From: Dehalococcoidia bacterium
GTDB taxonomy: Bacteria; Chloroflexota; Dehalococcoidia; Lucifugimonadales; UBA3495
NCBI GenBank assembly: GCA_021295965.1
Contig: JAGWBI010000016.1
Coordinates: forward strand, 16,623-51,227
Reading direction: 5' to 3'
DNA length: 34,605 nucleotides
Shown: positions 3,914 to 29,389 of the stretch, piece after piece
Layout: each line of letters opens with the position of its first letter
Numbering within the stretch: position 1 is the stretch's first letter
Notes under the pieces: generated by a model
Databases searched by the model: none
The model's input: only the letters and a program-made list of their open reading frames with translations
Told to the model about the DNA's origin: nothing
Translations under genes and position numbers: made by a program

Positions 3914-4088
3914 AGGGTGTCCAGAGTTCCGGTCAGGTGTGGAAGAACTGTCGCATCTCTATGCAATCCTAACACGCCCGGCCCTGCAATCCACTATCCA
4001 ACAACTTTCCCCGCCGTAAATTGGTGTCTCCAAAACGAAAATACTACTCACTACAGGAGTAAACATGATCGTGTTTCGTAACCTGGGC

Positions 4089-4118
4089 TTGACAGCGCGG
4101 CGATACCGCCCGTTTAAT
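4089..4118 (+). promoter_or_regulatory. Sigma70-type promoter of the first binding-protein gene
   Basis: A perfect -35 box TTGACA (4089-4094) is followed, after 18 bp, by TTTAAT (4113-4118), which matches the -10 consensus at five of six positions. A leader of about 70 nt separates it from the ATG at 4198. The same arrangement, including an upstream CGTAA.CTG block and CCGTTTAATC at the -10, is found before the second binding-protein gene (6193-6221). This suggests that the promoter was duplicated with the gene. Confidence 0.7.
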
Positions 4119-4197
4119 CCCGATTCGTACGTGACATTTTTGGATTAGCCGACTGGCTTGGCATCAGCGCGAGGACCGACTGTAGGAGGTCTAGCTC

Positions 4198-8114: not shown

Positions 8115-8142
8115 GCGCACCTAAAGGTGACAAAAGCGACAG

Positions 8143-8175
8143 CCGGCGACAATCCCGCAAGCGGTTTGTCGCCGG
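8143..8175 (+). promoter_or_regulatory. Strong intercistronic stem-loop between binding-protein and permease genes
   Basis: A perfect 10-bp stem (CCGGCGACAA / TTGTCGCCGG) encloses a second small stem (CCGC-AA-GCGG), giving one long, nearly continuous hairpin. Only scattered T residues follow. This suggests an mRNA-stabilising or partially terminating element that would leave the binding protein in excess over the permease. That arrangement is common in binding-protein operons, but it is an inference here. Confidence 0.6.
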
Positions 8176-8215
8176 TGTCTTATCGCGTTATTCTTGCGTC
8201 CCAGGTTATTAGATT

Positions 8216-9181: not shown

Positions 9182-9192
9182 GCCAAGTACCT

Positions 9193-9222
9193 TCGTCATT
9201 CCGGCGAAAGCCGGAATCCAAA
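9193..9222. repeat. GTCATTCC-family palindromic repeat between dppB- and dppC-like genes
   Basis: The core GTCATTCCGGCGAAAGCCGGAATC folds as ATTCCGGC-GAAA-GCCGGAAT, a perfect 8-bp stem with a GAAA loop. It belongs to the same family as the elements at 2980, 3488, 28882 and 29311. Inserted inside an operon, it ends just before the TTG start region of the next gene. Confidence 0.75.
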
Positions 9223-9238
9223 ACCTAGGAGCGCAGTT

Positions 9239-10123
9239 TTGGCTTCTGAAACTCCCGCATTGGTGATTGACGACCGCAGACAGGTCGGCTTGAGGCAGCG
9301 CATCAGGGACGCGCGACTGCCCTGGGTTCCCATCGCCATCCTGCTCATCATCGTCTTCTGCGCCGCCTTCGCCAACCTGATTGCGCCCCACGACCCACGC
9401 GAAAACAACGTTCGCAACAAGCTGCAGGCGCCGTTCGCCAGTTCGGAGCATGTCCTGGGCACCGACCGCCTGGGTAAGGATATGCTCAGCCGGTTGATTT
9501 ACGGCTCCCGGACCATGCTCCAGGTCACCGCCCCCTCCATGGTGGTGGCCATTCTCGCGGGAACTGTGGTCGGCCTGGTGTCCGGTTACTCCGGTCGTTG
9601 GGTGGACTCCATACTGATGCGGATCACCGACGCGGTGCTTGGTTTCCCGTCAATCCTGGTTGCATTGCTCATCGTGACCTATCTGGGTACGGGCGTCTGG
9701 AACGTGATGATCGCCATTGCCGCAACCCAATGGGCGCGGTTTGCCAGGATGATAAGAGGAGAGGTATTAGCGATTCGTGACCGCGATTTCGTCGTGCTGG
9801 CCCAGATCTACGGGGTCTCACCCGGCATGATCGTATGGCGCCACCTGTTCCCCAACGTCATCAACACGTTGATGGTGCTAACCAGCGTGAGCGTGGGCCA
9901 GGTTATCCTGCTGGAAGCGTCCCTCAGCTTCCTTGGCCTGGGCCTTGCGCCCGGCGATCCGGCGTGGGGCATTCTGGTGGCAGAGGGCCGCGAGTTCCTG
10001 ACGCAAGCCTGGTGGATCGCGCTTTTCCCCGGCCTGGTGATAACCGTCGTCGTGATGGCGTTCAACTTCTTCGGCGATTGGCTTCGCGACTACCTTGATC
10101 CCAGGCTGCGACGCGCCGGCTAA
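9239..10123 (+). CDS. ABC importer permease, DppC/OppC type (system 1)
   Basis: The 294-residue protein is the second pore subunit. A cytoplasmic N-terminus is followed by one helix (LPWVPIAILLIIVFCAAFANLI) and the periplasmic HDPRENN...HVLGTDRLGKDMLSRLIYGSR block that marks DppC proteins. Then come the core helices with an EAA-type loop (LAQIYGVSPGMIVWRHLFPNV) and the C-terminal NFFGDWLRDYLDPRLR signature. The start is TTG at 9239, chosen because TAGGAG lies 8 bases upstream and no in-frame ATG precedes the first helix. It ends the first transcription unit, 36 bp before a strong terminator. Confidence 0.93.
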   Translation: MASETPALVIDDRRQVGLRQRIRDARLPWVPIAILLIIVFCAAFANLIAPHDPRENNVRNKLQAPFASSEHVLGTDRLGKDMLSRLIYGSRTMLQVTAPSMVVAILAGTVVGLVSGYSGRWVDSILMRITDAVLGFPSILVALLIVTYLGTGVWNVMIAIAATQWARFARMIRGEVLAIRDRDFVVLAQIYGVSPGMIVWRHLFPNVINTLMVLTSVSVGQVILLEASLSFLGLGLAPGDPAWGILVAEGREFLTQAWWIALFPGLVITVVVMAFNFFGDWLRDYLDPRLRRAG

Positions 10124-10159
10124 TCCCGCGACGCGGCTACGCGCTATTCCAACAAACCA

Positions 10160-10198
10160 ATCCGCCCGAGAACATCCGGCTCTCGGGCGGATGTTTTT
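10160..10198 (+). terminator. Rho-independent terminator of transcription unit 1
   Basis: A perfect 12-bp stem, ATCCGCCCGAGA (10160-10171) with TCTCGGGCGGAT (10181-10192), has a 9-nt loop and is followed by GTTTTTCT. It is the clearest terminator in the window and separates the first importer unit from the second. Confidence 0.9.
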
Positions 10199-10220
10199 CT
10201 CCGACCGGCAGCCGGCAATG

Positions 10221-10249
10221 TTGACGGGCTATAGGCGGTATGCTAATGT
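10221..10249 (+). promoter_or_regulatory. Probable promoter of transcription unit 2 (extended -10)
   Basis: TTGACG (10221-10226), a 17-bp spacer and TAATGT (10244-10249) with an extended TGC at 10241-10243. The -10 agrees with consensus at the three most important positions (first T, A, last T). It lies just after the terminator and 76 bp before the binding-protein ATG. Confidence 0.5.
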
Positions 10250-10324
10250 CGCGCCTACGCCGCACAAGGGCGATTCGTTGACGCTAATCCGCCAACCTAT
10301 CGCGCCGGATTGGAGGAATGCGTG

Positions 10325-12034
10325 ATGCTGGTTCGCCAACAGATAGGGAAGCTGCTATTGGTTGGATTTTCCGTCTTGATTGTAATGGCGCTGGCAGCCT
10401 GTGGTTCCCCGACGGAGGAGCCCAGCGCGGCGGCTCCCGCAGCTCCCGCCGCATCCCAACCGACGGCAGCCCCCACCTCCCCCGCGCAGGCAACGGAAGC
10501 CCCGGCGACAGCGATGACCGAGGACACCGGTGGCAAGGTGACGTTAATGAACGCCGTGTGGGGAACCGAACTCTTCACCCCCAGGGACGGCGTCGGTGAA
10601 GCAGCGACGTACGGCCGCCAGATGAATGCTTTCTGGATTAACGGCAACGAAAACGTGGAGATGCTCCCGAGTGTGCTAACCGATTGGGCGGTTTCCGAGG
10701 ACGGCTTGTCCTGGGACTTGACCATCCGTGAAGGCATTACGTTCCACAATGGCGACCCGCTGACCATCGACGATGCCTTGTTCACCATGCAGTTTACGTT
10801 CGGCCCTGAAGCGGTAACCGAGTCGATCAGCCCCAGCATTCAGGCGGAAGCGGCGGAAACGGCCAGCATCGAGGCGACCGGTCCGAATTCCCTGCGGGTT
10901 ACGCATACCACCCCGAAAGCATTCTTCCCATTTTTTATATCGGAGTTGAGTTTCGGCATCGCTGGCATCCTTTTGCCCAAGACCTATTTTGAGAGCATAG
11001 GCCAGGATGCCTTTAACGATGCTCCTATCGGCGCTGGCCCGTTCCGACTGGAGAAGCACGTCATTGCCGAGCAGATTCTTTTGGAACGGGTGGACGATTA
11101 CTTCATGCCGGAACGAAGCCCGTCATTCCAGACCCTGGATTTGCGCTTGGTCCCAGAAGTAGCGACCCGCGTCGCTGCGCTGCGGGCGGGAGACGCCGAC
11201 GTGATCGAAGCAAACCTGGCGGTCAAAGACCAGGTTGAGGACGGTGGCGGCCGTTTCATCTGGGCGCAAGAGTCCTCGTATATGTGGATATTGATGCCCG
11301 GCTGCTGGGAGGTTCAGTTCCCGTGCAACAAGAAGGAAGTGCGACAGGCTTTGGACTATGCCATCGACAAAGACCTGATCATAAATTCGCTGTACGGGCC
11401 TGAAGCCGCGGTTTCCAAGGGCTGGAACTGGGTCACCCCCAATGCTCTGGGCTACAGCGCCGACCTGGATCCGTTCCCCCATGACCCCGAACTGGCCAAG
11501 CAGTTAATGGCGGACGCCGGCTACCCTGACGGCGACGGTTTCGGCACGCTTGAAGTCCATACTTGGAAGGCTGGCGACGTACCCTTCTTGCCGGAGCAGG
11601 CGCAGTTGATTGCGGACATGTGGGAAAAGAACCTGGGGATTGACGTGGAAGTAATCGTGGGAGAAGCCTCCACCGTGCGGGAGCGTTGGTTCGGCCGGCA
11701 ACTGGATGGCAAGGTGATCATACGCGCCAACGAGACCCGTTGGGACGGTGGCAGCATCACCAATGGCATCTATGGAGACCCTGAGGGGAACGCCCACCTG
11801 GGCGGCAAGCGTGACGATCTGGTTGCCGTCGCCAAGGAAGCTCTCTCGGTAGTTGACCCGACGCTGCGCCAAGAAGCGTTCAACAAAGCTTACAAGGTGC
11901 TTCGCGACGAGCACTACGAGTTTGGAACCGGGTATGTGAACCTGCCTTGGGGAGTAGGCCCAAGGATCGCCTCATGGGAACCGTGGCCTGTTGTCGCCTA
12001 CCAGACCGCGATCTGGACCATGAAACTCAACTGA
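10325..12034 (+). CDS. ABC importer substrate-binding lipoprotein (peptide/opine family 5), system 2
   Basis: The 569-residue SBP_bac_5 lipoprotein has a basic N-terminus, a hydrophobic helix and a classical lipobox LAAC (Cys26). A 35-residue Ala/Pro/Thr linker follows, then the binding domain with VLTDWAVSEDGLSWDLTIREGITF and VRQALDYAIDKDLIINSLYG. It shares architecture and many motifs with copies 1 and 2 but is clearly more diverged and shorter, so its ligand may differ. GGAGG at 10312-10316 places the start at ATG 10325 with an 8-base gap; a longer reading from TTG 10310 would contain that ribosome-binding site. The gene opens the second transcription unit, followed by its permease pair. 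Confidence 0.92.
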   Translation: MLVRQQIGKLLLVGFSVLIVMALAACGSPTEEPSAAAPAAPAASQPTAAPTSPAQATEAPATAMTEDTGGKVTLMNAVWGTELFTPRDGVGEAATYGRQMNAFWINGNENVEMLPSVLTDWAVSEDGLSWDLTIREGITFHNGDPLTIDDALFTMQFTFGPEAVTESISPSIQAEAAETASIEATGPNSLRVTHTTPKAFFPFFISELSFGIAGILLPKTYFESIGQDAFNDAPIGAGPFRLEKHVIAEQILLERVDDYFMPERSPSFQTLDLRLVPEVATRVAALRAGDADVIEANLAVKDQVEDGGGRFIWAQESSYMWILMPGCWEVQFPCNKKEVRQALDYAIDKDLIINSLYGPEAAVSKGWNWVTPNALGYSADLDPFPHDPELAKQLMADAGYPDGDGFGTLEVHTWKAGDVPFLPEQAQLIADMWEKNLGIDVEVIVGEASTVRERWFGRQLDGKVIIRANETRWDGGSITNGIYGDPEGNAHLGGKRDDLVAVAKEALSVVDPTLRQEAFNKAYKVLRDEHYEFGTGYVNLPWGVGPRIASWEPWPVVAYQTAIWTMKLN

Positions 12035-12050
12035 TTGATTAACGGTCGTC

Positions 12051-12968
12051 ATGTGGCAATTCATTGCAGTCCGGGTGTTGCAGGGCCTGATCACCCTGCT
12101 GGTCATCAGTATTCTGGTTTTTCTGGCAACCCGTTTGACAGGCGATCCGGCGTTAGTGCTGCTTCCTCCGGAGGCCTCGGGTAAAGAGGACTACGAACGG
12201 TTGCGCCGAGATTTGGGCTTGGACAAGCCGATCTCGGAGCAATACTTCATTTTCCTGAAAGGGGCGGTCCAAGGCGATTTCGGAGTTTCCATCCGCGATC
12301 GTCGGCCCACTCGCGATTTACTTCTCGAACGTCTTCCGGCCACGCTTCAGTTGGCCGCCGCGGGCATGGCTTTGGCGATAGTCATTGGCGTGCCTCTCGG
12401 CATATTGTCGGCGGTGAAGCGTGATACCGTTTTCGACAAGGTCGGCAAGTTGTTTGCCGTGCTGGGGATGGCCGCGCCCCAGTTCTGGGTCGCCATCATG
12501 CTGATCCTTCTGTTTGGCGCGATCCTGAAGGTGTTGCCCACATACGGAAGAGAGGGACCGGAGAATTTCATCCTGCCGGCCTTCGTGCTGGCCTGGTCCA
12601 TTATGGCCGGCATCATGCGCTTGGGGCGCTCCAGTATGTTGGAGGTCCTGGACAGCGACTATGTGCGTTTCGCCCAGATCAAGGGTTTGAAGGACGGCAT
12701 GGTGGTGTGGAAGCACGCCCTGCGCAATGCCCTGATACCCATACTGACTTTCAGCGGAATCAGCCTGGCGGGTTTGCTCAACGGCGCCATCGTGGTGGAG
12801 CAGGTGTTCGCCTGGCCCGGCCTCGGCCGGCTGATGCTGGACGGAGTGCTGCAGCGGAACTTCCCGGTGGTGCAGGCGGCGGTGATGGCTTCGGCGGCTT
12901 TCTACATCTTGACGGCGCTCATTGTTGACATCCTGTACGTGTACGCTGACCCCAGAATCAGGAACTAA
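12051..12968 (+). CDS. ABC importer permease, DppB/OppB type (system 2)
   Basis: The 305-residue DppB-family subunit closely resembles the gene at 8216, for example VPLGILSAVKRDTVFDKVGK, APQFWVAIM, SSMLEVLDSDYVRFAQIKG and GISLAGLLNGAIVVEQVFAWPG. Six helices and an EAA-type loop (IKGLKDGMVVWKHALRNALIP) are visible. It begins 16 bp after the binding-protein stop with a poor Shine-Dalgarno, so translational coupling is likely. It partners with the DppC-type gene that starts 22 bp downstream. Confidence 0.94.
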   Translation: MWQFIAVRVLQGLITLLVISILVFLATRLTGDPALVLLPPEASGKEDYERLRRDLGLDKPISEQYFIFLKGAVQGDFGVSIRDRRPTRDLLLERLPATLQLAAAGMALAIVIGVPLGILSAVKRDTVFDKVGKLFAVLGMAAPQFWVAIMLILLFGAILKVLPTYGREGPENFILPAFVLAWSIMAGIMRLGRSSMLEVLDSDYVRFAQIKGLKDGMVVWKHALRNALIPILTFSGISLAGLLNGAIVVEQVFAWPGLGRLMLDGVLQRNFPVVQAAVMASAAFYILTALIVDILYVYADPRIRN

Positions 12969-15369: not shown

Positions 15370-16335
15370 ATGGCAAACGACTTAATCTTACAGGTGCGAG
15401 ACCTGCAGACCCATTTCTTCACGCGCACCGGTGTGGTGAAGGCGGTGGATGGCATCAGCTTCGACCTGCATCGTGGCGAGACACTGGGAATCGTTGGAGA
15501 ATCCGGTTCCGGCAAAAGCATGACCGCCTGGTCGATCCTGGGCATGGTTCCCCATCCGGGGCGCATCGTGGGCGGGAGCATCGATTACCTGGGCGAAAAC
15601 CTGCTGGAGAAGAGCCGCGGGGAAATGCGGGACATACGAGGCTCCGGTATCTGCATGGTGATGCAGGACCCGCTCACATCGCTGAACCCGGTTTTTACGG
15701 TGGGGGATCAACTGGTCGAAACGCTGCGTCTGGAATACCCCGAACCGAGACGCTCCCTCCGTCAGCGGGCGATACAACTGCTCGACAACGTGAAAATACC
15801 AGCTGCGGAAGACCGGTTGACCAACTTTCCCCACCAGATGAGCGGTGGTATGCGGCAACGGGTGGTGGGCGCGATCTCCATTTCCAGGGCGCCCAACCTG
15901 CTCATCGCTGACGAGCCAACCACGTCGTTGGATGCTACCATTCAGTTGCAATACCTTCGCCTGTTGAAAGAGATCCAGGAGCAGACCGGAGCGGCCATCA
16001 TCTTCATCACCCACGACTTTGGCATCGTGGCGCGGATGTGTGACCGGGTGGCCGTGATGTATGCCGGGCGAATTGTCGAGCAGTCGGACGTGGAAGATAT
16101 GTTCGATAGCCCCGCCCATCCCTACACAGAAGCGCTGTTGCAGTCGGTTCCTGACCTGGACACCGACGTTGATCTGCTGCCTTCAATTGAGGGCCAGCCG
16201 CCGTCGCTGGATGCTTTGCCGGTAGGGTGCTCCTTTGCCCCGCGCTGTCCCTACCGGTGGGAGCGCTGCGAAGAATACCCGGACGAATTTACCGTAGCTG
16301 CGGGGCACACTTCCCGATGCTGGAGGGCGGAATAA
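15370..16335 (+). CDS. ABC importer ATPase, DppD/OppD type
   Basis: The 321-residue nucleotide-binding subunit has Walker A GESGSGKS (43-50), a Q-loop in MVMQDPLTSLNP (Gln99), the signature MSGGMRQR (157-164), Walker B LLIADEP (177-183) and a switch histidine in FITHDFG. The C-terminal oligopeptide domain with paired cysteines (GCSFAPRCPYRWERC) is typical of Opp/Dpp ATPases. It would power the DppB/DppC pores together with the adjacent OppF-type subunit, whose ATG overlaps this gene's TAA by one base. No other ATPase pair occurs in the window, so it may serve more than one permease set. Confidence 0.95.
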   Translation: MANDLILQVRDLQTHFFTRTGVVKAVDGISFDLHRGETLGIVGESGSGKSMTAWSILGMVPHPGRIVGGSIDYLGENLLEKSRGEMRDIRGSGICMVMQDPLTSLNPVFTVGDQLVETLRLEYPEPRRSLRQRAIQLLDNVKIPAAEDRLTNFPHQMSGGMRQRVVGAISISRAPNLLIADEPTTSLDATIQLQYLRLLKEIQEQTGAAIIFITHDFGIVARMCDRVAVMYAGRIVEQSDVEDMFDSPAHPYTEALLQSVPDLDTDVDLLPSIEGQPPSLDALPVGCSFAPRCPYRWERCEEYPDEFTVAAGHTSRCWRAE

Positions 16336-17372
16336 TGGTTACCACGATTGCAGCGTCCGGCGAGACCGTTGTAAGGGGCGATGACCAGGCCCTGGTGCGC
16401 CTGGAGGGCATCCGCCGCCATTTCCCGATATATCGTGGCAATGTGCTCCGCCGGAGAACCGGAATAGTCAAAGCCGTTGACGGGATCTCCATCAACATCA
16501 TGCCCGGCCAGACCTACAGCCTGGTCGGCGAATCGGGCTGCGGCAAGACCACCACCAGCCGGATGCTGCTGATGGCCGACCGCCCCACCGACGGCAGCAT
16601 CTATTTTGACAACCGGCCCATGAACCAGTTCTCCGGGGCCGAGCGGCGCAACTTCCGCGCTTCCGTGCAGGCCGTTTTTCAGGACCCATGGAGTTCCCTA
16701 AACCCCAGGATGCGGGTTGACCAGATCATCGCGGAGCCGCTGATTACCCACCAGCGTCTCAGCCGGTCTGCGGTGCGTTCCCAGGTCCACGAACTGTTGC
16801 AGGTGGTGGGTTTGCACCCCTTCCATGCCGAGCGGTATCCCCATGAGTTCAGTGGCGGCCAGCGTCAACGCATCGCCATCGCCCGGGCCCTTTCCACCCG
16901 ACCCAAGCTGATCGTGCTGGACGAGCCGGTTTCGGCATTGGACGTCTCGATCCGCGCCCAGATCCTTAATCTGCTGAAGGAACTGCAATCGACCTACGAG
17001 TTGAGCTACCTGCTCATCGCCCATAACCTGGCGACGGTGCGGTACATGAGCCACACGGTGGGCGTCATGTACCTGGGCAAGATCGTCGAAGAAGCGCCGC
17101 CCATCGAACTGTTTACCAATCCCCAGCATCCGTACACCCGCGCGCTGATCTCCGCATCACTGCCGGCCCATCCTCGGCGGCAGCGGGAGGAGCTGGTGCT
17201 GACGGGGGAAGTCCCTTCGCCCCTGAACCCGCCGGCGGGCTGCACCTTCCACCCTCGCTGTCCCTTCGTCATGGAGCGCTGCTCGGTGGATGTTCCCCTG
17301 TTGATCGAATATCAGCCCGGCCATGCCGCAGCGTGCCACTTGTACGACGGCGGCGGCCCGGATGCCTGCTGA
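16335..17372 (+). CDS. ABC importer ATPase, DppF/OppF type
   Basis: The 345-residue partner ATPase has Walker A GESGCGKT (65-72), Q-loop FQDPWSSLNPRM, signature FSGGQRQRI (172-180), Walker B LIVLDEP (192-198) and IAHNLATVRYM at the switch region. The Cys-containing tail GCTFHPRCPFVMERC is the Opp/Dpp C-terminal domain. The start is ATG 16335, overlapping the upstream stop (TAATG) and preceded by GGAGGG at 16322-16327. A longer in-frame reading from 16227 would run inside the DppD gene and lacks homology. It ends the second transcription unit. Confidence 0.95.
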   Translation: MVTTIAASGETVVRGDDQALVRLEGIRRHFPIYRGNVLRRRTGIVKAVDGISINIMPGQTYSLVGESGCGKTTTSRMLLMADRPTDGSIYFDNRPMNQFSGAERRNFRASVQAVFQDPWSSLNPRMRVDQIIAEPLITHQRLSRSAVRSQVHELLQVVGLHPFHAERYPHEFSGGQRQRIAIARALSTRPKLIVLDEPVSALDVSIRAQILNLLKELQSTYELSYLLIAHNLATVRYMSHTVGVMYLGKIVEEAPPIELFTNPQHPYTRALISASLPAHPRRQREELVLTGEVPSPLNPPAGCTFHPRCPFVMERCSVDVPLLIEYQPGHAAACHLYDGGGPDAC

Positions 17373-20770: not shown

Positions 20771-21649
20771 TTACAGGTTCCGCTGTTTCGGGTCCAGCTT
20801 GTCGCGCAGCCAGTCGCCCAGCAGGTTCATGGACAGCACGGTGAGCAGGATGGCCAGGCCGGGGAAGAAGGACAGCCACCAGGCGTCGGTCACGAAGGAT
20901 CGTCCGTCGGCTACCATCACGCCCCATGCCGGGGTAGGCCGGGAGATGCCCGCTCCGAGGAAGCTCAGCGTCGCCTCCAGCACGATGACGAAACCCACCT
21001 GCAAGGTGGCGAGGACCACCACGGTGTTGAAGATGTTGGGGAAGATGTAGCGGAGCATGATCCGGAAGTTGGACGCTCCGGCCACCCGGGCCCGGGAGAT
21101 GTAGTCCTGCGCCCGTATGGTCAGCGCTTCGCCGCGAACCAGGCGAGCATAGCGAGACCATTGGCTCAACACCAGCACGGCAATCAATATCTTCATGCTG
21201 GGCCCCGCCATCGCGGCGACCACAATCGCCACCACGATGATGGGCAAGGATAAGGAGATGTCCACCAGGCGCATCATCAGGTTGTCGGCCCACCCCCCGT
21301 AAAAGGCGGACACAATACCGAAAGATGTGCCAATCAACCCGGATATCAGTATGGCCACACTGGCCACCAACAGGGACACGCGGGCTCCGTGCATGACCCG
21401 GCTGAGTACGTCCCGCCCAATGTCGTCGGTGCCGAACCAGTGCTGCGCCGAAGGTTCAGCGAAGCGATTCTTCATGTCGCCTTTCAGTGGGTCGTAGGGA
21501 GCAATCCAATTGGCGCCGAGGGCGGGGATGAGCAGGACTATCACCAGGACAGCCACTGGAATTATCGGATAGCGGAAAACTTCCCTTACGTAATGGCCGA
21601 TTCGGGATGGCGGACGTGGGGCGCTAAGTTCTGGTAGTGCTACGGCCAT
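20771..21649 (-). CDS. ABC importer permease, DppC/OppC type (system 3)
   Basis: The 292-residue protein has one N-terminal helix (YPIIPVAVLVIVLLIPALGANWI), the DppC periplasmic block YDPLKGDMKNRF...HWFGTDDIGRDVLSRVMHGAR, core helices with EAA-type loop SRARVAGASNFRIMLRYIFPN, and the C-terminal NLLGDWLRDKLDPKQR signature. It is clearly more distant from the system 1 and 2 subunits than those are from each other. GAGG lies 11 bases before ATG 21649. The stop of the DppB-type gene is 30 bp upstream, so the two are coupled. No ATPase gene follows on this strand. Confidence 0.93.
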   Translation of the reverse strand: MAVALPELSAPRPPSRIGHYVREVFRYPIIPVAVLVIVLLIPALGANWIAPYDPLKGDMKNRFAEPSAQHWFGTDDIGRDVLSRVMHGARVSLLVASVAILISGLIGTSFGIVSAFYGGWADNLMMRLVDISLSLPIIVVAIVVAAMAGPSMKILIAVLVLSQWSRYARLVRGEALTIRAQDYISRARVAGASNFRIMLRYIFPNIFNTVVVLATLQVGFVIVLEATLSFLGAGISRPTPAWGVMVADGRSFVTDAWWLSFFPGLAILLTVLSMNLLGDWLRDKLDPKQRNL

Positions 21650-21679: not shown

Positions 21680-22600
21680 TCAGTTGTACCGTATGCGCGG
21701 GTCGAGGTAGGCATAGGATATGTCCACCAGCAGATTGGCGACTATATAGATGGTGGTGAAGGTCAGCATAATGCCTTGGAGCAGCGCGTAGTCGCTGGAG
21801 CGCGCCGCGTTGAACAGCAGGAACCCCAGGCCGGGCCACTGGAAAACCGTTTCGATGGAAACGGATCCCACCATCAGCGATCCCAGCGTGATGGCGAAGT
21901 AGGTCAGCGGCGCGATGGAGGCGTTCCGCAAACAGTGCTTCCAGATGATCTTCCGCTCCGGCAGACCCTTGATCCGGGCCAGTTTCACGTACTCGCTGTC
22001 CAGCACGTCCAGCATGGACGAGCGGACGAGGCGGAGCATGGCGGCCACCTGGAACCACCCGATGGCGACGGCCGGCAGGATCAGGTTCCTGATGCCGCCC
22101 TTGCCGGAGGTTGGGAACCAGTCCAGTTGGACCGCGAATATCCACATGAGGACAATACCCAGCCAGAAGACAGGCAGGGACTGTCCGAGGAGGGCTACGA
22201 TTTTGCCGGTCCAGTCAAATACGCTGTCGCGATAGGTTGCTGTCAGGACTCCGATGGGCAGACCGATAACTACGGCCACCAGTATGCCGGCTCCGGCCAA
22301 CTGGATGGTGGCTAAGAAGCGGTCCTGGATGAGTTCGGACACTGAGAACTGTGGGTATTTGAAGGAGTTGCCAAAGTCACCCCTTACGGCGTTCCAAACG
22401 TAAGTGAAGTACTGTTCGTGCAACGGTTTGTTGATGCCCCAGAATTCCTCCAGGTCAGCCCGGACCGTGGCGTCGGCGTCGTCAGGCAGGATGGCGTCCA
22501 GGGGGTTGCCGCCGGCGTGGCCCAAGGCGAAGGCTATTACGCTCACCACCACCAGGACCAGAAGCGCCTGGAGGACACGCATAATGATGTACCTTTGCAT
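21680..22600 (-). CDS. ABC importer permease, DppB/OppB type (system 3)
   Basis: The 306-residue DppB-family subunit starts MQRYIIMRVLQALLVLVVVSVIAF. It has the GINKPLHEQYFTYVWNAVRGDFGNSF block before the core, VFWLGIVLMWIFAVQLDWFPTSG, the EAA-type loop ARIKGLPERKIIWKHCLRNASI, and the C-terminal DISYAYLDPRIRYN. TTAGGAG lies about 7 bases before ATG 22600. It stands between the system 3 binding protein, from which a strong stem-loop separates it, and the DppC-type gene. Confidence 0.94.
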   Translation of the reverse strand: MQRYIIMRVLQALLVLVVVSVIAFALGHAGGNPLDAILPDDADATVRADLEEFWGINKPLHEQYFTYVWNAVRGDFGNSFKYPQFSVSELIQDRFLATIQLAGAGILVAVVIGLPIGVLTATYRDSVFDWTGKIVALLGQSLPVFWLGIVLMWIFAVQLDWFPTSGKGGIRNLILPAVAIGWFQVAAMLRLVRSSMLDVLDSEYVKLARIKGLPERKIIWKHCLRNASIAPLTYFAITLGSLMVGSVSIETVFQWPGLGFLLFNAARSSDYALLQGIMLTFTTIYIVANLLVDISYAYLDPRIRYN

Positions 22601-22755: not shown

Positions 22756-24609
22756 CTATTGGGGGATTCCCCTTGGTGAATTATCCGGATCGCAGGGGGG
22801 AGCCTCGATCAACTCGTTGCTGCCCAAGTCGCCACCTTCCCAGCCGGGGAACGGCCAAGAGCAGATGAACTTCGGGTCAACGATGGTCTCGATAGGCACC
22901 CAGAATAGCGGTATCCATTCGTGCTCGTAGAACTTGATGTTCCCGATATCGATGAGCACCTTTTCCCGTTCGACCGGATCCACCGTTACCTGCAGCGTGT
23001 GATACAGGTCCCGCAGCTCCTGGGTCTCATACATCCAGACCACGCCGCCGTCATCCCGGTGGGTGTTGAACAGCATTATCTGGGCTTCCACGGCTTTGAA
23101 GGAAGGAGTGGTGGCGAGGGCCGTCTCGTGGTTGGCCTTCTGGCGGCGACGTGCTACCACAGCCGCCCGGTCCTCGTCGCGCAGTTCCAGCTCCACTCCG
23201 ATCTCGGCCCAGGCCAGTTGCATGAACTGGGCAATCTGGGGGAGTTCCGGCGCGCCGGGGAAGGGGTACATGGGAACGGTGATCTTGAACCCGTCGGGGT
23301 AGCCGGCGTCAGCCAGAAGCTGCTTAGAAGCTTCCAGATCGTAACCGTACTCCGCTTCCCAGTCCTCGTCCCACTGCGGGTTCCAGGCCGTCAGCGTGGG
23401 ATGGAAGGCATGGACTTTCGAGTCCCAAACGCGGCCCTTGTACAGCTCGGACTTGAAGGTTTCCCGGTCAACGGCCTTGTTGAGGGCCTTGCGAACCATG
23501 ATTCCCCTCTCGCCCGGCGCAGTGACTGGGAAGTTGGGGTCATAGTTTTCGGGGTCGGCGTAGAACATGCCGCCGAAGCGGAAGGCCGTCTGCTGGGCGG
23601 GGCCTCTGCTGGGGATGATCAGGAAGCCTTCCTCGGTCAGCCGGTCGCCCAGGTCGCGGTTGACCTCGGTCATGTGGGTCTCGCCGGCGCGGAACTGGGC
23701 CAGACGGGTGGATTCTTCCAGGACCCAGGTGTTGCGCATTTCCGGATAAACCGGATCATGGCGCCAGTGCCCGTCCGGGAAGGCCAGGGAGTAGTCCACG
23801 TGGACTTCGGGGACCCGGCCTTCGTACTGATACGGACCGGTGCCGGCCAGGTTTTCGTAGTACGCGTCGGTGCAGCCTTCGCTGGCGACGTTCTCAGCAT
23901 CGTCGAACCCGCCGTTCTGGTCGCACTGGGCCTTGCTGTAGATCATGTTGCCCGCGGACTCGGCAGCGTAGAACAGGTACTCCGCCGAGGGCTTCTTCAT
24001 GTGGACGATGATGTTATAGGGGTCCACAATCTCCACATGGTCAACGTTGCAGATGCCGCCCTTGTAGCTGGCGCGGGTACCCTTCTGGCAGGTCAGCTTG
24101 AAGCTGTGCGCCACGTCCTCGGCGGTGAACTCGCCGAACCCCTTATGGAACTGGACGCCCTGCTCCAGTTCAAAGGTCCAAACGTCTCCGGTGGCGTTCA
24201 TCTCCCAGGACCTTGCCAGCATGGGGGCCCACTCGCTGGTGTAGGGGTCCAACTGCACCAGGTACTCTATGAAGGGGCTGTGCTGGTACACGAAGTCAAC
24301 ACCACCCAGCCACGGCACCACGGTGTCGTCGATGGGAGTGATCAGCCCCAGGATGATTTTGTCCGTCAGCAACTCCTGGTTAGCCATCGCGTCCGGGGCG
24401 GGCGCTTCCGTGGCCGCAGGTTGTGCCGCCGCCGCGGGCTCGGTCGCCGCTGGCGCGGAGCCGGACTGTGCGGCCTGCGGCGGTGCGGCAGGCTGACCGG
24501 TATCGGCCGGCGTCTCGGCGGCCCCTCCGCAAGCTACGACAAAAACCAGCGCCAAAAGCGCTGGCACGCATAGCAACGCCGGGGAAATCCTGATTCCGTA
24601 ACGGTTCAT
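22756..24609 (-). CDS. ABC importer substrate-binding lipoprotein (peptide/opine family 5), system 3
   Basis: The 617-residue lipoprotein has a hydrophobic signal segment and lipobox VVAC (Cys27). An Ala/Pro/Gln linker runs from about 30 to 70, and the SBP_bac_5 domain carries SEWAPMLARSWEMNATGDVWTFELEQGVQF and VRKALNKAVDRETFKSELYKGRVWD. Four cysteines in the middle region (around TCQKGTRASYKGGICNVDH and SKAQCDQNGG..SEGCTD) could form two disulfides. The start is ATG 24609 with GGAGGT about 7 bases upstream; an earlier GTG at 24639 lies before that site. The gene opens a minus-strand importer operon. It is clearly distinct from the three binding proteins of systems 1 and 2. Confidence 0.92.
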   Translation of the reverse strand: MNRYGIRISPALLCVPALLALVFVVACGGAAETPADTGQPAAPPQAAQSGSAPAATEPAAAAQPAATEAPAPDAMANQELLTDKIILGLITPIDDTVVPWLGGVDFVYQHSPFIEYLVQLDPYTSEWAPMLARSWEMNATGDVWTFELEQGVQFHKGFGEFTAEDVAHSFKLTCQKGTRASYKGGICNVDHVEIVDPYNIIVHMKKPSAEYLFYAAESAGNMIYSKAQCDQNGGFDDAENVASEGCTDAYYENLAGTGPYQYEGRVPEVHVDYSLAFPDGHWRHDPVYPEMRNTWVLEESTRLAQFRAGETHMTEVNRDLGDRLTEEGFLIIPSRGPAQQTAFRFGGMFYADPENYDPNFPVTAPGERGIMVRKALNKAVDRETFKSELYKGRVWDSKVHAFHPTLTAWNPQWDEDWEAEYGYDLEASKQLLADAGYPDGFKITVPMYPFPGAPELPQIAQFMQLAWAEIGVELELRDEDRAAVVARRRQKANHETALATTPSFKAVEAQIMLFNTHRDDGGVVWMYETQELRDLYHTLQVTVDPVEREKVLIDIGNIKFYEHEWIPLFWVPIETIVDPKFICSWPFPGWEGGDLGSNELIEAPPCDPDNSPRGIPQ

Positions 24610-24808
24610 TACCAGACCTCCAGACTCTGCTTTGTCCACCGGATACCGTGAGCCCTAACTCCAACCAACTATTGATATGAGACCTGTAGTGGATGGCAAC
24701 TGTGGCTCATGCGGTGTGTGATGAAATACTCGGTCGTTTCTCTGCTGATTGCCACGCGCCGTCTCCATGGACGACCCGAAAAACCGTTCTTACAAAGGTT
24801 TGCCGGAC

Positions 24809-24928: not shown

Positions 24929-27900
24929 TCACGGATGCTCAATAATGGTCAATCGTTGATTGGCCGGAACGTCCTCCAGGGTTTGCACGGCGCCGCTGGG
25001 CCATCGGATTTCTACGGAGTCCGCCTGGTCGGCGGCGCCCAGTCCGAAATGGGCTGGCAGCATATTCTGGCCCTTGTTGCTGGAGCCGGCCGTGATCTCC
25101 CGGATCTGCGTGCGCCCTCCGGCGGTTACGGTGATTCTGGCCCCGATGCCGTCGCGGTTGCTGACCGTCCCTTGCGTAGCGATGCGTAGCCAGTTGCCGC
25201 CCCAGGCGCAGCTGTTTCGGAAGAGTTTCGCCGATTGAGGGCCATCTCCGGCCAAGCCCAGGTTGGCCACGTACAGGTCCAGGCAGCCGTCGTCATCGAA
25301 ATCGGCATAGGCCACTCCGCGGCCGACGCCCCGGTCGTCGGCGCCGCTCACCGACGACACGTCGGCGAAGGTCGCGTCTCCAGTGTTGCGGAGCAGCAGG
25401 TTGGGCTGGTTACGGTGGTTGGTGAAGGGGTCGCTGTCCAGGTAGCCGCTGGCTGCGTAGAGGTCCTCCCAGCCGTCGTTGTCGTAGTCGAAAAACACGG
25501 CGCCCCAGCTCACGCGCTGTCGTCGCTGGAACAGGCCCTTCGCTGCTCCGGCGTCGGCGGCGGTTTCGGTGAAGGCGCTCCCGTCTCCGTTGTTGCGCAG
25601 CAGCACGTTGGCCTCGATATTGGTGACGTAGAGGTCGAAGTCTCCGTCCAGGTCGTAGTCGCCGACGGCAAGCCCCATGCCGAACATGGCCGCATCGGCC
25701 CCGGAGGGCTGGGAAATATCCGCAAAGCGCCATGCGCCGTCTTGTCCCGGCCCGTCGTTGCGCCAAAGGACGTTGGGCTGAATATCCTTGCCGAAGTCGT
25801 TGATCACGTAAAGGTCTGAATCGCCGTCGTTGTCGAAATCCACCCAGGCCGGTTGGAACCCGGCGCCCCACAGGTTGCCGTATTCGCCCTGGGATCCGCT
25901 GGGCGCGGAGGTGTCGCCCAGGAGGTGAGTGACCTCGGTGAAGGTTCCGTCCCCGTTGTTGTGGTACAGGGCTAGGGGACGCACGGCGTAGGCGTAGAAG
26001 CGGAGGTCAAAGGCTTCCGGGTCGTCCTCCGCCATGTGGCGTACCACCACGAAGTCCAGGAAGCCGTCCCGATCATAGTCGCCCCAGGCGCAGCCCATGG
26101 ATCGGTAGCTGGCGTCCGGGTCGCCCAATCCGGCCGGGCTGGTGACGTCGGTGAAGGCTCCCGCGCCGTTGTTGCGAAAGAGCCGGCTGTTGCCCCAATT
26201 CGTCACGAAGAGGTCTCGGTCGCCGTCGTTATCGTAATCGGCGGCGCACCCGCCGTTGGTTTTGCCCTCCAGATCGCCGACGCCGGCTTCCTCGGCCACG
26301 TCGGTGAAGGCGCCGTCGCCGTCGTTGCGGTACAGGGCGTTGTTCACGTCGGCATCGGAGACCACGTCGCTGGTGTCCTCGGTGCGGGCCACAAAGATAT
26401 CGTGCCGGCCGTCGCCGTTGTAATCAAACACGACCACGCCGGCCCCCAACGGGATGCGGTCCGTCGGGTCCCGGTAGTGCCGGAAGTCAACGCCGGCCGC
26501 TTCGGACACGTCGTTGAAATAGGGCCGGTGGTAGCTGAAGCCGCCGGCCACCGTGCTGGAACGTCCGTCGGGATTGGTGACCACCACGTCCGCCACGCCG
26601 GCCGGTTGCGGCGGCGCGGCGATGGTCATGGTATGCGAATCGAGGAATTCCACCACTCGGGCCTCGACGCCGCCAATGTTGACCCGACTATTCTCCAAAA
26701 AACCCGTGCCCGTGATGGTCACCAGGCTGTCTCCCAGGGTGGCGGCAGCGGGCGGGTCCACGCCCAAAACCAGCGGCCCTCCGGACTCGGCCGGTGGGAG
26801 GATTCCCGGCCCCCATGCCGGGCCCACGTCGTTGGCGGCGCTGCCGCTGAGGTTGGCCTGGTGGGACCCGTCGGCGTTCATCACCATGATCTCTTCGTCG
26901 CCGTAGCGGTTGCTGGTAAAGACGATCCTCGTGCCGTCGGGCGACCAGGAGGGCCAGTAGTCCTTGAAGGCGTTGGAGGTGAGCCGCACCCGGTTGGAGC
27001 CGTCGGCCTGCATCACGTAGATGGATCTCCGGCCTTCCCAGTCCGAGGAGTAGGCGATCCTGGAACCGTCGGGCGACCAGACGGGAAATTCGTCGCTGGT
27101 GGCGCTCTTGGTGAGGCGCGTCTGGTTGGAGCCGTCGGCGTCCATCACGTAGATCTCCAGGTTCCCGTCCCGCCGCGTGTTGAACAGGATGCGCTCGCCG
27201 TCGGGGGACCACGAAGGAGACGCGTCGTAACCGGGGTGGTTGGTCAGGTTGACCTGGTTGGAGCCGTCGGCGTCCATCACGTAGATCTCCCGGTTGCCGT
27301 CCCGGTCTGAGGCGTAGGCAATCTTGCTGCCGTCCGGTGACCAGGCGGGATAGGCGTTGACCGGACCGCTGGCCCCGTTCCCGGATCCGTTGGTCAAGCG
27401 CCGCAGGCGGGAGCCGTCGGCGTTCATCACGTTTATCTCCGCGTGGCCGTCCCGTTCGGACACGAAGGCGATCTTTTTTCCGTCGGGCGACCAGACGGGG
27501 AAATCGTCATAGGCGGTGTTGTTGGTGAGCCGCCTCAGGTCTGAACCGTCGGACTTCATGGAGTAGATCTCGAAGTCCCCGTCCCGGTCCGAGCGGAAAA
27601 GGATGCGGGAATCGGAGTCGTTCAGGAAAAAGGGGCCGATGAACAGCAGACCCGCGCCAGCCACCATGCTCAGCGACCAGGTGCCGGCGGCAAAGGCGGC
27701 CACCGCCTTCTTGGGCATAACGCGGGCCAAGCCCCAGAAGGTGAAGGGGCCGCCGGCCGCCGCGCCGAACAGCAACGCCGCCGCCGGGGCGCTGCCCATG
27801 CCAACCAGCAGCAGCACCGCCACCAGGGGTATCTCGAACAGCAGGGGCACGTTGATAAGGATGCCGAAGGTGGCGGCCACGACGATGCCGGAGACATTGT

Positions 27901-28714
27901 TGCCCAGATAGGCGGCGACGGTCTCCGGCGTCAGCCATTGGATGACGAGGCCGCCGGCGAAACCGGCCAGCACCATGGCCGGCCCCAAACGCCAGAGATA
28001 ACGCAGGCTGGCTTTGATCCAGTCCTTCAACCCTGTCGTCAGGGTGTCCCGCCAGGTGTTCGGTCCGCTTTCCTCTCCAACTGTCCCGTACCGGAATATA
28101 TCGGCTATAGGAACGCGACGCCGGATGAGCAGGGCCACCAACGGCCCCAGCAGCAGCACGCCCACGATGCTCACCGCGATGCGGGTGCTGGCCAGCATGG
28201 GAGTGAACACCAGCGCGGCCATCACCAGCGCCGGTATGTTCAGGGTGGAAGATCCCTGGGTGATTGCGATGGCCGTCTCAACCGGCGCGCCCTGGCGTCG
28301 GAACGCCGAGGCGATGGGGACAATGCACGCGGAGCACAGGTTCATCGAGGAGCCGACGGCGAAGCCCCGCAATACCCCTTTCAGTCCCCCACCGGTGAAA
28401 CGCGAGCCTTCGCCCCGGGGAAACAGGAAGACTTCCGTGATGCCCGCCGCAAGGAAGGCGAAAGTCATCCCCAGGCTGACCAGTCTCAGGTAGCTGAGAG
28501 AGAAGTCCCACCACCGCTCGAAGAATCCGGTTTCAGGTTCCCGGTCGATGCAGAAGCCCTGGAAGCACTCGGTCTGGGGGGCGTTGACGGCGCCCAGGTC
28601 TTCCTGGATCGTATCCAGCTTGGGGATACGGTTGAAGGCCAGGAACAGGCCCAGAATGACCGCCAGCAGCACGATACCGATGACACGCTTCTTTTTCAGC
28701 GCCGTATCAAACAT
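24929..28714 (-). CDS. Permease / TolB-propeller / IPT-TIG / VCBS-ASPIC fusion protein
   Basis: One uninterrupted ORF of 1261 residues. Residues 1-365 are an integral membrane part with about nine to ten hydrophobic segments, resembling ArsP/DUF318 permeases (SSMNLCSACIVPIASAFRRQ near 122-141, and a second half with INVPLLFEIPLVAVLLLVGM near 287-306). Residues 367-636 are six PD40/TolB-type propeller repeats, each ending in a WSPDG-like motif (408, 458, 502, 546, 590 and a degenerate WGPG at 634). Residues 648-727 are an IPT/TIG Ig-like domain. Residues 730-1165 hold seven VCBS/FG-GAP calcium loops of the DxDxDGxxD kind (near 764, 827, 879, 959, 1019, 1077 and 1138). Residues 1174-1260 are an ASPIC/UnbV domain (NRDGIGARITV, SVEIRWPSGAVQTL). 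The soluble part resembles secreted CRTAC1-like proteins. The order suggests a membrane carrier with a very large extracytoplasmic receptor, but function is unknown. The start ATG 28714 has a weak ribosome-binding site. Confidence 0.85.
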   Translation of the reverse strand: MFDTALKKKRVIGIVLLAVILGLFLAFNRIPKLDTIQEDLGAVNAPQTECFQGFCIDREPETGFFERWWDFSLSYLRLVSLGMTFAFLAAGITEVFLFPRGEGSRFTGGGLKGVLRGFAVGSSMNLCSACIVPIASAFRRQGAPVETAIAITQGSSTLNIPALVMAALVFTPMLASTRIAVSIVGVLLLGPLVALLIRRRVPIADIFRYGTVGEESGPNTWRDTLTTGLKDWIKASLRYLWRLGPAMVLAGFAGGLVIQWLTPETVAAYLGNNVSGIVVAATFGILINVPLLFEIPLVAVLLLVGMGSAPAAALLFGAAAGGPFTFWGLARVMPKKAVAAFAAGTWSLSMVAGAGLLFIGPFFLNDSDSRILFRSDRDGDFEIYSMKSDGSDLRRLTNNTAYDDFPVWSPDGKKIAFVSERDGHAEINVMNADGSRLRRLTNGSGNGASGPVNAYPAWSPDGSKIAYASDRDGNREIYVMDADGSNQVNLTNHPGYDASPSWSPDGERILFNTRRDGNLEIYVMDADGSNQTRLTKSATSDEFPVWSPDGSRIAYSSDWEGRRSIYVMQADGSNRVRLTSNAFKDYWPSWSPDGTRIVFTSNRYGDEEIMVMNADGSHQANLSGSAANDVGPAWGPGILPPAESGGPLVLGVDPPAAATLGDSLVTITGTGFLENSRVNIGGVEARVVEFLDSHTMTIAAPPQPAGVADVVVTNPDGRSSTVAGGFSYHRPYFNDVSEAAGVDFRHYRDPTDRIPLGAGVVVFDYNGDGRHDIFVARTEDTSDVVSDADVNNALYRNDGDGAFTDVAEEAGVGDLEGKTNGGCAADYDNDGDRDLFVTNWGNSRLFRNNGAGAFTDVTSPAGLGDPDASYRSMGCAWGDYDRDGFLDFVVVRHMAEDDPEAFDLRFYAYAVRPLALYHNNGDGTFTEVTHLLGDTSAPSGSQGEYGNLWGAGFQPAWVDFDNDGDSDLYVINDFGKDIQPNVLWRNDGPGQDGAWRFADISQPSGADAAMFGMGLAVGDYDLDGDFDLYVTNIEANVLLRNNGDGSAFTETAADAGAAKGLFQRRQRVSWGAVFFDYDNDGWEDLYAASGYLDSDPFTNHRNQPNLLLRNTGDATFADVSSVSGADDRGVGRGVAYADFDDDGCLDLYVANLGLAGDGPQSAKLFRNSCAWGGNWLRIATQGTVSNRDGIGARITVTAGGRTQIREITAGSSNKGQNMLPAHFGLGAADQADSVEIRWPSGAVQTLEDVPANQRLTIIEHP

Positions 28715-28881
28715 CTGCTGCGCCCCGAGCGGCGTGATTATGGTCGCATAACGTCGCGATTGGTCGAGGGATCGGCCGCAAGAACGGTGGGATGTTATGC
28801 CCGGCCCTGGTTGCTGTCAACGCTGGGGAGCCTGCGCACCCCCAGCGTCGCAGGACTTGCGCAGTTGGAAGCCTTTACTCT

Positions 28882-28909
28882 CGTCATTCCCACGAAAGCG
28901 GGAATCCGG
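28882..28909. repeat. GTCATTCC-family palindromic repeat
   Basis: CGTCATTCCCACGAAAGCGGGAATCCGG is the same unit as at 9193, with a slightly mismatched stem. Confidence 0.6.
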
Positions 28910-28968
28910 TGAACGAAATCGTCAAAGGCGATGAATGTCTCACGCGTACCCGCTTTCTCCAAACTGTC

Positions 28969-29002
28969 ATTGCCACGAATGCCGTCAGGCATTCGTGGCA
29001 AT
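28969..29002. repeat. Perfect 15-bp-arm hairpin repeat
   Basis: ATTGCCACGAATGCC, loop GTCA, GGCATTCGTGGCAAT. It is preceded by GTC, so it opens like the GTCATTGC elements at 33299 and 33752, which appear to be relatives with a different stem. The following sequence to 29087 ends GAGATTGCCATCCGCCAGAGG.., which is also found at 33830-33862. Confidence 0.7.
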
Positions 29003-29310
29003 CTCGTTGCGGTACTGACGACTACTTGCAACAAGCCTCTGCTACGCCGACGAGATTGCCATCCGCCAGAGGCGGACTCGCAATGCCAAAGTAGGTACGC
29101 ATGAGCGATGAATGTTCATTCGCTCTTCGGCTCCTGGACTCCTGCTTTCGCAGCAACGACGGTACTCTAGTCTCAACTGCCTAACTCCTATGACGGCATG
29201 AGTGAGCCAGGGCAATTGCATTTCAAATAATCTCATCCGTCCCTCCGGTGAAAGCCGGCGTCCGGTAACCCAAAAGTCGGTACATCTGCAACGAAACAAA
29301 CAATTGTGGC

Positions 29311-29341
29311 GACTGGATTCCCGCTTTCGCGGGAATGACGG
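29311..29341. repeat. GTCATTCC-family palindromic repeat (reverse orientation)
   Basis: It folds as ATTCCCGC-TTTC-GCGGGAAT and ends GAATGACGG, the reverse complement of the CGTCATTCC start seen elsewhere. Confidence 0.65.
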
Positions 29342-29389
29342 ATATATGTAGCCCCAAATGCGATTGCCCTGATGAGTGAGCCAACCGCG

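Follow-up and report, generated by a model that had tools for sequence, protein, structure and literature searches.

Why does a membrane permease carry some 900 further residues in the same polypeptide? The question is raised by a gene of a marine SAR202-type bacterium. Widely distributed in the ocean and in sponges, SAR202 bacteria are difficult to culture, and their interactions with the surroundings are poorly understood. We analysed a stretch of 34,605 nt (the window) from Dehalococcoidia bacterium (Lucifugimonadales; UBA3495), assembly GCA_021295965.1, contig JAGWBI010000016.1, positions 16,623 to 51,227 of the forward strand.

Five module types in one frame

The initial annotation had read five module types in a single frame of 1261 residues and proposed a domain search. 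The search bore this out, with ArsP_1 (residues 86-353, 66.2 bits against a cut-off of 32.3), PD40 (185.1 bits), TIG (residues 647-726, 43.1 bits), FG-GAP_3 (seven stretches, 145.2 bits) and UnbV_ASPIC (residues 1189-1256, 81.6 bits) each above its Pfam cut-off in an intact ORF. Every one of 1000 base shuffles of this ORF held at least 17 in-frame stops. It is the sole ArsP_1 match and the sole ASPIC match of its own genome. The CSAC motif of the permease was located as annotated, and so were seven calcium-type loops: a motif scan found Dx[DN]xDG, a putative calcium site, at residues 764, 826, 879, 959, 1019, 1076 and 1138. An FG-GAP calcium-type propeller followed by ASPIC/UnbV is the arrangement that we call CRTAC1-like. 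The six annotated PD40 repeats were also found by motif scan, at residues 408, 458, 502, 546, 590 and 634; the first spacing is 50 residues, and the next four are 44. The label "ArsP-like" holds for the superfamily but no further, since the fusion falls far below the NCBIfam equivalog cut-offs of SaoE (33.7 bits where 325 are required) and SO_0444 (21.7 where 300 are). The stand-alone relative L147 is likewise far under the permease equivalog cut-offs.

Table 1. Features of the fusion locus (window coordinates).
Feature	Residues	Position	Strand	Basis or remark
Fusion ORF	1-1261	24929..28714	-	ATG start, intact frame
Permease module, ArsP_1 superfamily	1-365	27620..28714	-	our assignment: seven membrane crossings plus two hairpins
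CFQGFC, outer-loop motif	50-55	28550..28567	-	permease alignment
CSAC, hairpin 1	127-130	28325..28336	-	permease alignment, structure model
NVPLLFEIPL, hairpin 2	288-297	27824..27853	-	permease alignment, structure model
TolB-like six-bladed propeller	366-640	26795..27619	-	Pfam, structure model, fold match
TIG domain	641-733	26516..26794	-	Pfam 647-726
CRTAC1-like FG-GAP propeller	734-1188	25151..26515	-	seven calcium-type loops
ASPIC/UnbV domain	1189-1261	24932..25150	-	
SBP_bac_5 binding protein		22756..24639	-	next gene, same strand as fusion
BPD_transp_1 membrane subunit of ABC importer		21680..22600	-	
BPD_transp_1 membrane subunit of ABC importer		20771..21649	-	
Two oligo_HPY-type ABC ATPases		15370..17372	+	15370-16335 and 16227-17372; only candidate partners of importer

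A membrane carrier with an outer part of about 900 residues, either for sensing or binding or as a surface-binding domain that the carrier anchors, had also been proposed. The polytopic carrier is supported, while the outer placement is probable: the helix order of the AF2 model and the positive-inside charge count agree with an N-in/C-out protein, and the hydropathy maximum of 19-residue windows is 2.82 before residue 365 and 1.09 after it. The C-terminus and the roughly 900 residues that follow the permease thus probably lie outside the cell. Structural matches of this ectodomain place CRTAC1 first, followed by fungal GlcNAc lectins and integrins. A fold search with the permease-plus-propeller model listed propeller proteins in its top 50 and, within that list, no match for the permease fold by itself. 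The permease profile gave three matches against the PDB, all at chance level, and thus no substrate hint from solved relatives.

Conservation, exchange and separation of the halves

The assembly is in 86 contigs, and a misassembly of unrelated genes at the permease/propeller junction was a concern of the initial annotation. However, 6 of the other 13 genus genomes, including two single-contig assemblies, have full-length orthologues with the same module order and 77-81% identity, which brings the fusion to 7 of 14, its own genome included. Related fusions extend across many families. We therefore rejected misassembly, whose probability is negligible. The pairing of permease and ectodomain is real and conserved. 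Within the order, 62 of 250 genomes match the permease family, and 58 of 67 near-full-length permease matches sit in frames of at least 700 residues, the usual partner being a CRTAC1-like FG-GAP/ASPIC ectodomain. A TolB-like propeller fused to the permease was found only in the window's genus among the genomes surveyed. The five-module layout is a genus-specific version of a wider permease plus CRTAC1-like family. Outside the fusion clade, Chloroflexota PF03773 frames reach at most 602 residues among the matches listed. Other phyla were sampled through CRTAC-bearing loci in 34 genomes (some Chloroflexota). Three of these contained permease matches (E <= 1e-5), four in all, which are 25-29% identical and lie in frames of 389-640 residues.

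The permease core is intact in the window copy. Across 30 permease rows, 52 columns are invariant, CFQGFC and CSAC among them; both CFQGFC cysteines are invariant in 30/30, also in decayed relatives. Both core motifs (CSAC and FEIPL) are kept in 67 of 70 surveyed ORFs. Pairwise dN/dS against the six genus orthologues, with some dS near saturation, is below 0.35 in every module and 0.13-0.16 in the permease, which is among the most constrained.

The tree of the permeases and the tree of the ectodomains are in conflict, so exchange or recruitment of ectodomains must have happened on more than one occasion. The AU test left out five rows: three on long branches, a fourth at the edge of a contig and the split gene L149. 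Of the analyses of ectodomain change, one omitted four outgroup rows and another five, the test groups of the latter having been named after the trees were seen. The free CRTACs were drawn from matches to the window's own protein and lean towards its type. Relatives carry other outer parts on the permease. The two halves are separable, and relatives have lost either the core or the ectodomain. Six stand-alone permeases (L147, L148, L150-L153) have an intact core and no ectodomain, and at L149, permease and ectodomain are separate neighbouring genes. Conversely, three ORFs from two lineages have lost the CSAC hairpin and the FEIPL motif and kept the membrane segments, the outer CxxxxC loop and the ectodomain. 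These natural losses make the role of each half directly testable.

Importer genes beside the fusion

Side by side downstream of the fusion, an SBP_bac_5 gene and two BPD_transp_1 genes have the layout of an Opp/Dpp/Nik importer. Fusion locus and peptide/nickel-type ABC importer genes are newly linked here. In the genus, the SBP orthologue and the fusion share exactly the same 7 of 14 genomes, and SBP-type genes are same-strand neighbours of the fusion in several families. Of 32 scored loci, 11 have an SBP-type gene no more than 4 kb from the fusion; the expected number, 1.36, comes from PF00496 counts in 24 genomes, to which the scored loci were limited, rather than from a random-gene control. 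When one locus is drawn per family, the figures are 4.8 and 0.6. The detector was seeded with binding proteins from these same loci, and flank lengths are unequal. Outside the scored set, such a gene lies within 4 kb at 4/4 further loci of the window's genus and at 5 of 20 outside the genus; the available flank of the other 15 holds none. Against the link stand the other 21 of the 32 scored loci, where no SBP-type gene occurs in this 4-kb range, and two further SBP_bac_5 systems in the window, which make the region transporter-rich. No substrate-specific importer equivalog was matched: the binding protein is far under every cut-off, and the membrane subunits are under theirs, the nearest being Opp2C (285.7 of 300 bits). 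An arsenic operon was considered and rejected, as none of 19 scanned window neighbours is an arsenic gene.

In a first scan of gene context, the neighbourhood looked unconserved; profiles and wider stretches revealed the ABC link. The importer, the wider family, the exchange of ectodomains and the loss of core or ectodomain had all escaped the initial annotation.

Possible roles and known systems

We give an even chance to a working carrier with a permanent surface-binding ectodomain, tied to an ABC uptake locus. The gene product would be a cytoplasmic-membrane carrier of the ArsP_1 superfamily, with transport activity suggested by its sequence. Its C-terminus, as modelled, would lie outside the cell and bear the ectodomain. 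This is a CRTAC1-like calcium propeller with ASPIC, to which the TolB-like propeller and TIG are added in this genus. The substrate may be a small, thiol-reactive or metal-containing solute. The ectodomain could dock on a ligand or partner outside the cell, for which the adjacent binding protein or surface material feeding the importer is the likeliest candidate, and carrier and importer would then act at one place. The computed basis is the layout, its conservation, the intact core, ectodomain exchange, the separable halves and the closeness to an Opp/Nik-type importer; the conserved fusion, the kept core, CRTAC1 as the best ectodomain match, and the proximity and co-occurrence of the SBP gene support this reading. 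More tentatively, the family may consist of carriers whose outer receptor modules can be swapped. A single permease scaffold, fitted time and again with different extracellular propellers or helices, would then be the docking carrier of ABC uptake loci; in some lineages it would have lost the transport core and turned into a platform for outward display, with the invariant CxxxxC loop retained. If true, a scaffold with exchangeable outer parts beside peptide/nickel-type importers would be a novel means of positioning transport at a surface ligand.

In the strongest, though unlikely, rival the permease serves above all as a membrane anchor and display platform, and selection keeps an adhesin-like or glycan-binding ectodomain. 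The three ORFs that keep loop and ectodomain without CSAC and FEIPL favour it; there the ectodomain is therefore not maintained by transport, which counts against the docking carrier. The lectins and integrins next after CRTAC1 and the split halves of L149 also fit. However, both motifs persist in nearly all surveyed ORFs, constraint on the permease ranks with the strongest in any module, and the core motifs kept in ectodomain-less permeases speak for transport as such. Somewhat less probable still is a transceptor, in which an outside ligand gates or reports through the permease and controls the neighbouring importer or gene expression. Varied ectodomains on one scaffold and the adjoining importer genes agree with this, but a Pfam scan of the fusion found no cytoplasmic signalling domain. 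A detoxification exporter of organoarsenicals or soft metals, with the ectodomain as a minor add-on, is improbable. It would explain the ArsP_1 match, and C. jejuni ArsP exports trivalent organoarsenicals (excerpts of PMC6205960); against it stand the missed equivalog cut-offs, the scanned neighbours without arsenic genes and the nearly constant presence of the ectodomain. A docking carrier remains our preferred reading.

The combination had been put forward as undescribed. No permease fused to ASPIC/FG-GAP appears in the search listings of openly licensed PMC papers or in excerpts of PMC6205960, PMC3123361, PMC6306507, PMC7176098, PMC5649159, PMC3174227, PMC2745422 and PMC3909097, but the five-module layout is one genus's version of a wider family. 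With the ArsP exporters (TC 2.A.119, PF03773), the fusion shares the PF03773 match, a C-S-x-C in the first half and the internal repeat pattern. It differs in an extra N-terminal segment with the outer CFQGFC loop and in the ectodomain; ArsP permeases are single modules of 344 ± 53 residues on average (excerpts of PMC7176098), against 1261. The nearest other ArsP-type members met are about 28% identical to its permease. TolB of Tol-Pal has a six-bladed PD40 propeller too and, as entry 1c5k, heads the PDB fold matches. The fusion, whose propeller is part of a membrane protein, misses the TolB cut-off (TIGR02800, 246.3 of 343.15 bits), and its best stretch covers only positions 236-418 of the 418 in the profile. 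The fusion differs from CRTAC1 by its permease; animal CRTAC1 has an EGF-type domain, which a Pfam scan did not find in the fusion. Murine CRTAC1 (9etn) is nevertheless the best PDB match of the ectodomain (E 2.9e-27, TMq 0.65), and CRTAC1 and bacterial FG-GAP-ASPIC proteins match it in sequence (E 1.9e-25). We know of no Opp/Dpp/Nik-type importer (SBP_bac_5) with such a fused carrier; here, genes for the SBP and the two membrane subunits of an importer of this type adjoin the fusion.

A single constrained reading frame

The initial annotation had described five module types in one ORF. A Pfam domain search found all five in the order given there (ArsP_1, PD40, TIG, FG-GAP_3 and UnbV_ASPIC), every match above its own Pfam cut-off, and a motif scan confirmed the seven calcium loops (Dx[DN]xDG). 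Six propeller repeats are likewise present, but their spacing, given there as a regular 44 residues, is 44 four times and 50 once. Every one of 1000 base shuffles of the ORF contained at least 17 in-frame stops. Constraint is evident along the protein: pairwise dN/dS between the window and six genus orthologues is 0.13-0.16 for the permease, 0.18-0.34 for the TolB-like propeller, 0.18-0.27 for TIG, 0.17-0.20 for the CRTAC part and 0.10-0.25 for ASPIC. The window's own genome (completeness 86.6%) has a single ArsP_1 and a single ASPIC match, both in the fusion gene. Copies of a dispersed repeat of the ATTCCCGCGAAAGCGGGAAT type lie in the intergenic stretch 5′ of the fusion (window 28880-29345); 80 places were listed in this genome at up to one mismatch, whereas the reversed pattern, used as a control, gave none.

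Positions of the fusion, its predicted hairpins and importer genes (nucleotides in the window; aa in the fusion protein)
Feature	Position	Strand	Remarks
Fusion ORF	24929-28714	(-)	1261 aa, ATG start
Hairpin 1	aa 110-140		contains CSAC; DSSP-based assignment
Hairpin 2	aa 274-303		contains NVPLLFEIPL; DSSP-based assignment
SBP_bac_5 gene	downstream of fusion, 293-base gap	(-)	same strand as fusion
Two BPD_transp_1 genes	downstream of fusion	(-)	same strand as fusion
Two oligo_HPY ATPases	15370-17372	(+)	
Two further SBP_bac_5 genes	6297-12968		with membrane subunits

Seven of 14 genus genomes, the window's own included, carry the fusion in a single frame spanning residues 1-1259 or 1-1261; it is absent from the other seven, including the single-contig G018. 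The orthologues in the six other genomes, two of which are single-contig, are 77-81% identical with the same module order. Full-length relatives come from SAR202 or Dehalococcoidia MAGs. The available part of PMC5649159 presents bin87 as a SAR202 bin of the sponge Aplysina aerophoba, and one member of the window's genus is very probably a sponge symbiont.

A search with aa 1-365, the permease part, matched 62 of the 250 genomes surveyed from the order. In samples of the class and the phylum it matched 11 of 393 and 4 of 400 genomes; the four from the phylum sample are our own, two that belong to a single other genus and carry four copies apiece, and one with a 29% match. Near-full-length matches, covering at least 300 of the 365 query residues, numbered 67 in the order survey; 58 lie in open frames of at least 700 aa and 7 in frames of 380-432 aa, and those of G357 and G869, with frames of 521 and 613 aa, are apparently cut by contig ends. 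As a control, PF03773 matches 79 of 121 Chloroflexota genomes; among the matches listed, only our gene and four in G523 have frames above 900 aa, and the rest have at most 602 aa. The permease clade splits from six other ArsP_1 rows, a hand-picked outgroup, at 100/99 support. A frame change within the permease breaks one of the permease-CRTAC copies in G029, which has a second, whole copy (L011, L019, L020, L027).

Predicted structure and exchange of the ectodomain

The AF2 model of aa 1-740 (33 alignment rows; mean pLDDT 84, pTM 0.62) has TolB as its first structural match. For the model of aa 641-1261 (28 rows; pLDDT 89, pTM 0.91), the top-ranked PDB structure for the ectodomain is 9etn, murine CRTAC1 (E 2.9e-27, TMq 0.65); fungal lectins and integrins rank lower. 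Calcium blades with a Dx[DN]xDG-type motif occur in an integrin, PilY1, a lyase and a fungal lectin, according to the available portion of PMC3123361. Crossing segments and hairpins were assigned by hand from the DSSP string of the AF2 model, which suggests an N-in/C-out permease that crosses the membrane seven times and has two broken hairpins. Lys plus Arg counts are 4, 4, 2, 6 and 3 for the segments assigned as inner, against 1, 0, 0, 0 and 1 for those assigned as outer.

Permease and CRTAC-type ectodomain share a single ORF in 31 of 40 fetched loci; in L149 they form two adjacent, overlapping ORFs. The permease has no ectodomain in L147, L148, L150, L151 and L152 (one family) and in L153, is fused to DUF3179 in L154 (4905-7076), and carries a choice-of-anchor Q/beta-helix region in L185, the same gene as in L012. 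A sortase gene is next downstream of the L154 ORF. Among the loci examined, the TolB-like propeller is a fusion module solely in the window's genus; the seven permease rows of that genus group as a single clade (100/100). L156 has a separate TolB-like propeller ORF (3744-5084) with a lipoprotein-like start, directly 5′ of a same-strand permease-CRTAC fusion, and all three loci of one genus (L239, L240, L241) have a separate, divergent CRTAC-type ORF of 728-739 aa beside the fusion.

On the permease tree, the beta-helix permease L012 clusters with two TIG+CRTAC permeases (97/91); its outer part has therefore been replaced. Fused and free forms are intermixed in a tree of 62 CRTAC rows, and a single clade for fused CRTACs is rejected (p-AU 2.8e-7; 32 fused versus 25 free, five rows dropped). 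Grouping the permeases that share one CRTAC type is rejected on the permease tree as well (17 rows, p-AU 1e-5; 13 rows, p-AU 2e-4). Thus, ectodomains have been exchanged or recruited more than once.

Separability of the two halves

We surveyed 70 distinct ORFs with an outer C[FILV]QGxC loop. CSAC-type and FEIPL motifs are both kept in 67, of which 58 have calcium-type loops and 9 do not: L154, L185 and the seven that have no ectodomain fused to them. The remaining three lack both motifs and keep the ectodomain. Two are a tandem pair of decayed permease-CRTAC fusions that lost the CSAC hairpin (L250:2949-9496, in G342); the third, L031:7998-10634, is an 879-aa ORF with membrane segments, an ECFQGGC loop and CRTAC/ASPIC, and gave no ArsP_1 match in a Pfam scan. 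In an eight-row alignment, the hairpin 1 stretch is missing from these three and from L251:3057-3953, a contig-end fragment from the same genus as G342 in which the second half is recognisable. Apart from the missing stretch, L251 shares 46% identity with the permease of the window; it may represent an intermediate. C50, Q52, G53 and C55 do not vary across the eight rows, decayed relatives included. Given core-less ORFs and ectodomain-less permeases, each half can persist without the other; in the window's fusion both are intact.

Importer genes and the proposed role of the fusion

Same-strand importer genes also lie beside the fusion in other families (L211, L212, L213, L214, L216, L227, L229, L230), and divergent ones in L215 and L228. 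An SBP-type gene is within 4 kb of the fusion in 11 of 32 scored loci (24 genomes), against 1.36 expected from per-genome counts, and in the other 21 there is none within that distance. When one locus was drawn per family (16 families), 4.8 had a nearby SBP against 0.6 expected, and a value as high as the observed one arose by chance in 0.2% of draws. No SBP-type gene was found in the stretch examined for 15 of 20 unscored loci outside the genus. Orthologues of the window's SBP (83-84% identity) are confined, within the genus, to the fusion-bearing genomes and occur in all of them (7 of 14); since the genes are adjacent, this is block inheritance rather than seven independent events. Counting against an importer link are the 21 scored and 15 unscored loci with no SBP-type gene nearby, and also the two further SBP_bac_5 systems of the window, which make the region transporter-rich anyway.

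Transporter genes are numerous across window 344-32725: four encode MFS proteins, one a xanthine/uracil-type permease, and three are SBP_bac_5 genes accompanied by membrane subunits. The six other genus SBP orthologues (L244-L249) have one in-frame TGA inside the stretch aligned to the window's SBP_bac_5, whose start codon was perhaps called too far upstream. In another genus, each of the six loci retrieved (L233-L238) has a convergent MFS gene of 493-508 aa beside the fusion.

Our main reading, to which we give about even chances, is that the fusion acts together with an ABC uptake locus as a carrier whose outer binding part is permanently attached. The analysis establishes the architecture, its constraint, the exchange of ectodomains, the separability of the halves and the proximity to importer genes. 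On the main reading, the permease would be the active carrier, the ectodomain would lie outside the cell, and the outer binding part would dock; superfamily membership and the pair of cysteine motifs suggest a thiol-reactive or metal-containing substrate. Because permease cores have decayed in some relatives, the strongest rival is a permease that merely anchors the ectodomain in the membrane, which we nevertheless consider unlikely. A transceptor is somewhat less probable again, the Pfam scan of the fusion protein having found no signalling domain, and a plain detoxification exporter, for which no neighbour genes speak, is the least probable.

The individual modules of the fusion are already known, and ArsP-family proteins average 344 aa in the available text of PMC7176098. 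The portions of the openly licensed literature covered gave no description of a permease-ectodomain fusion. Within that scope, what appears to be new is the fusion of known modules in one protein.
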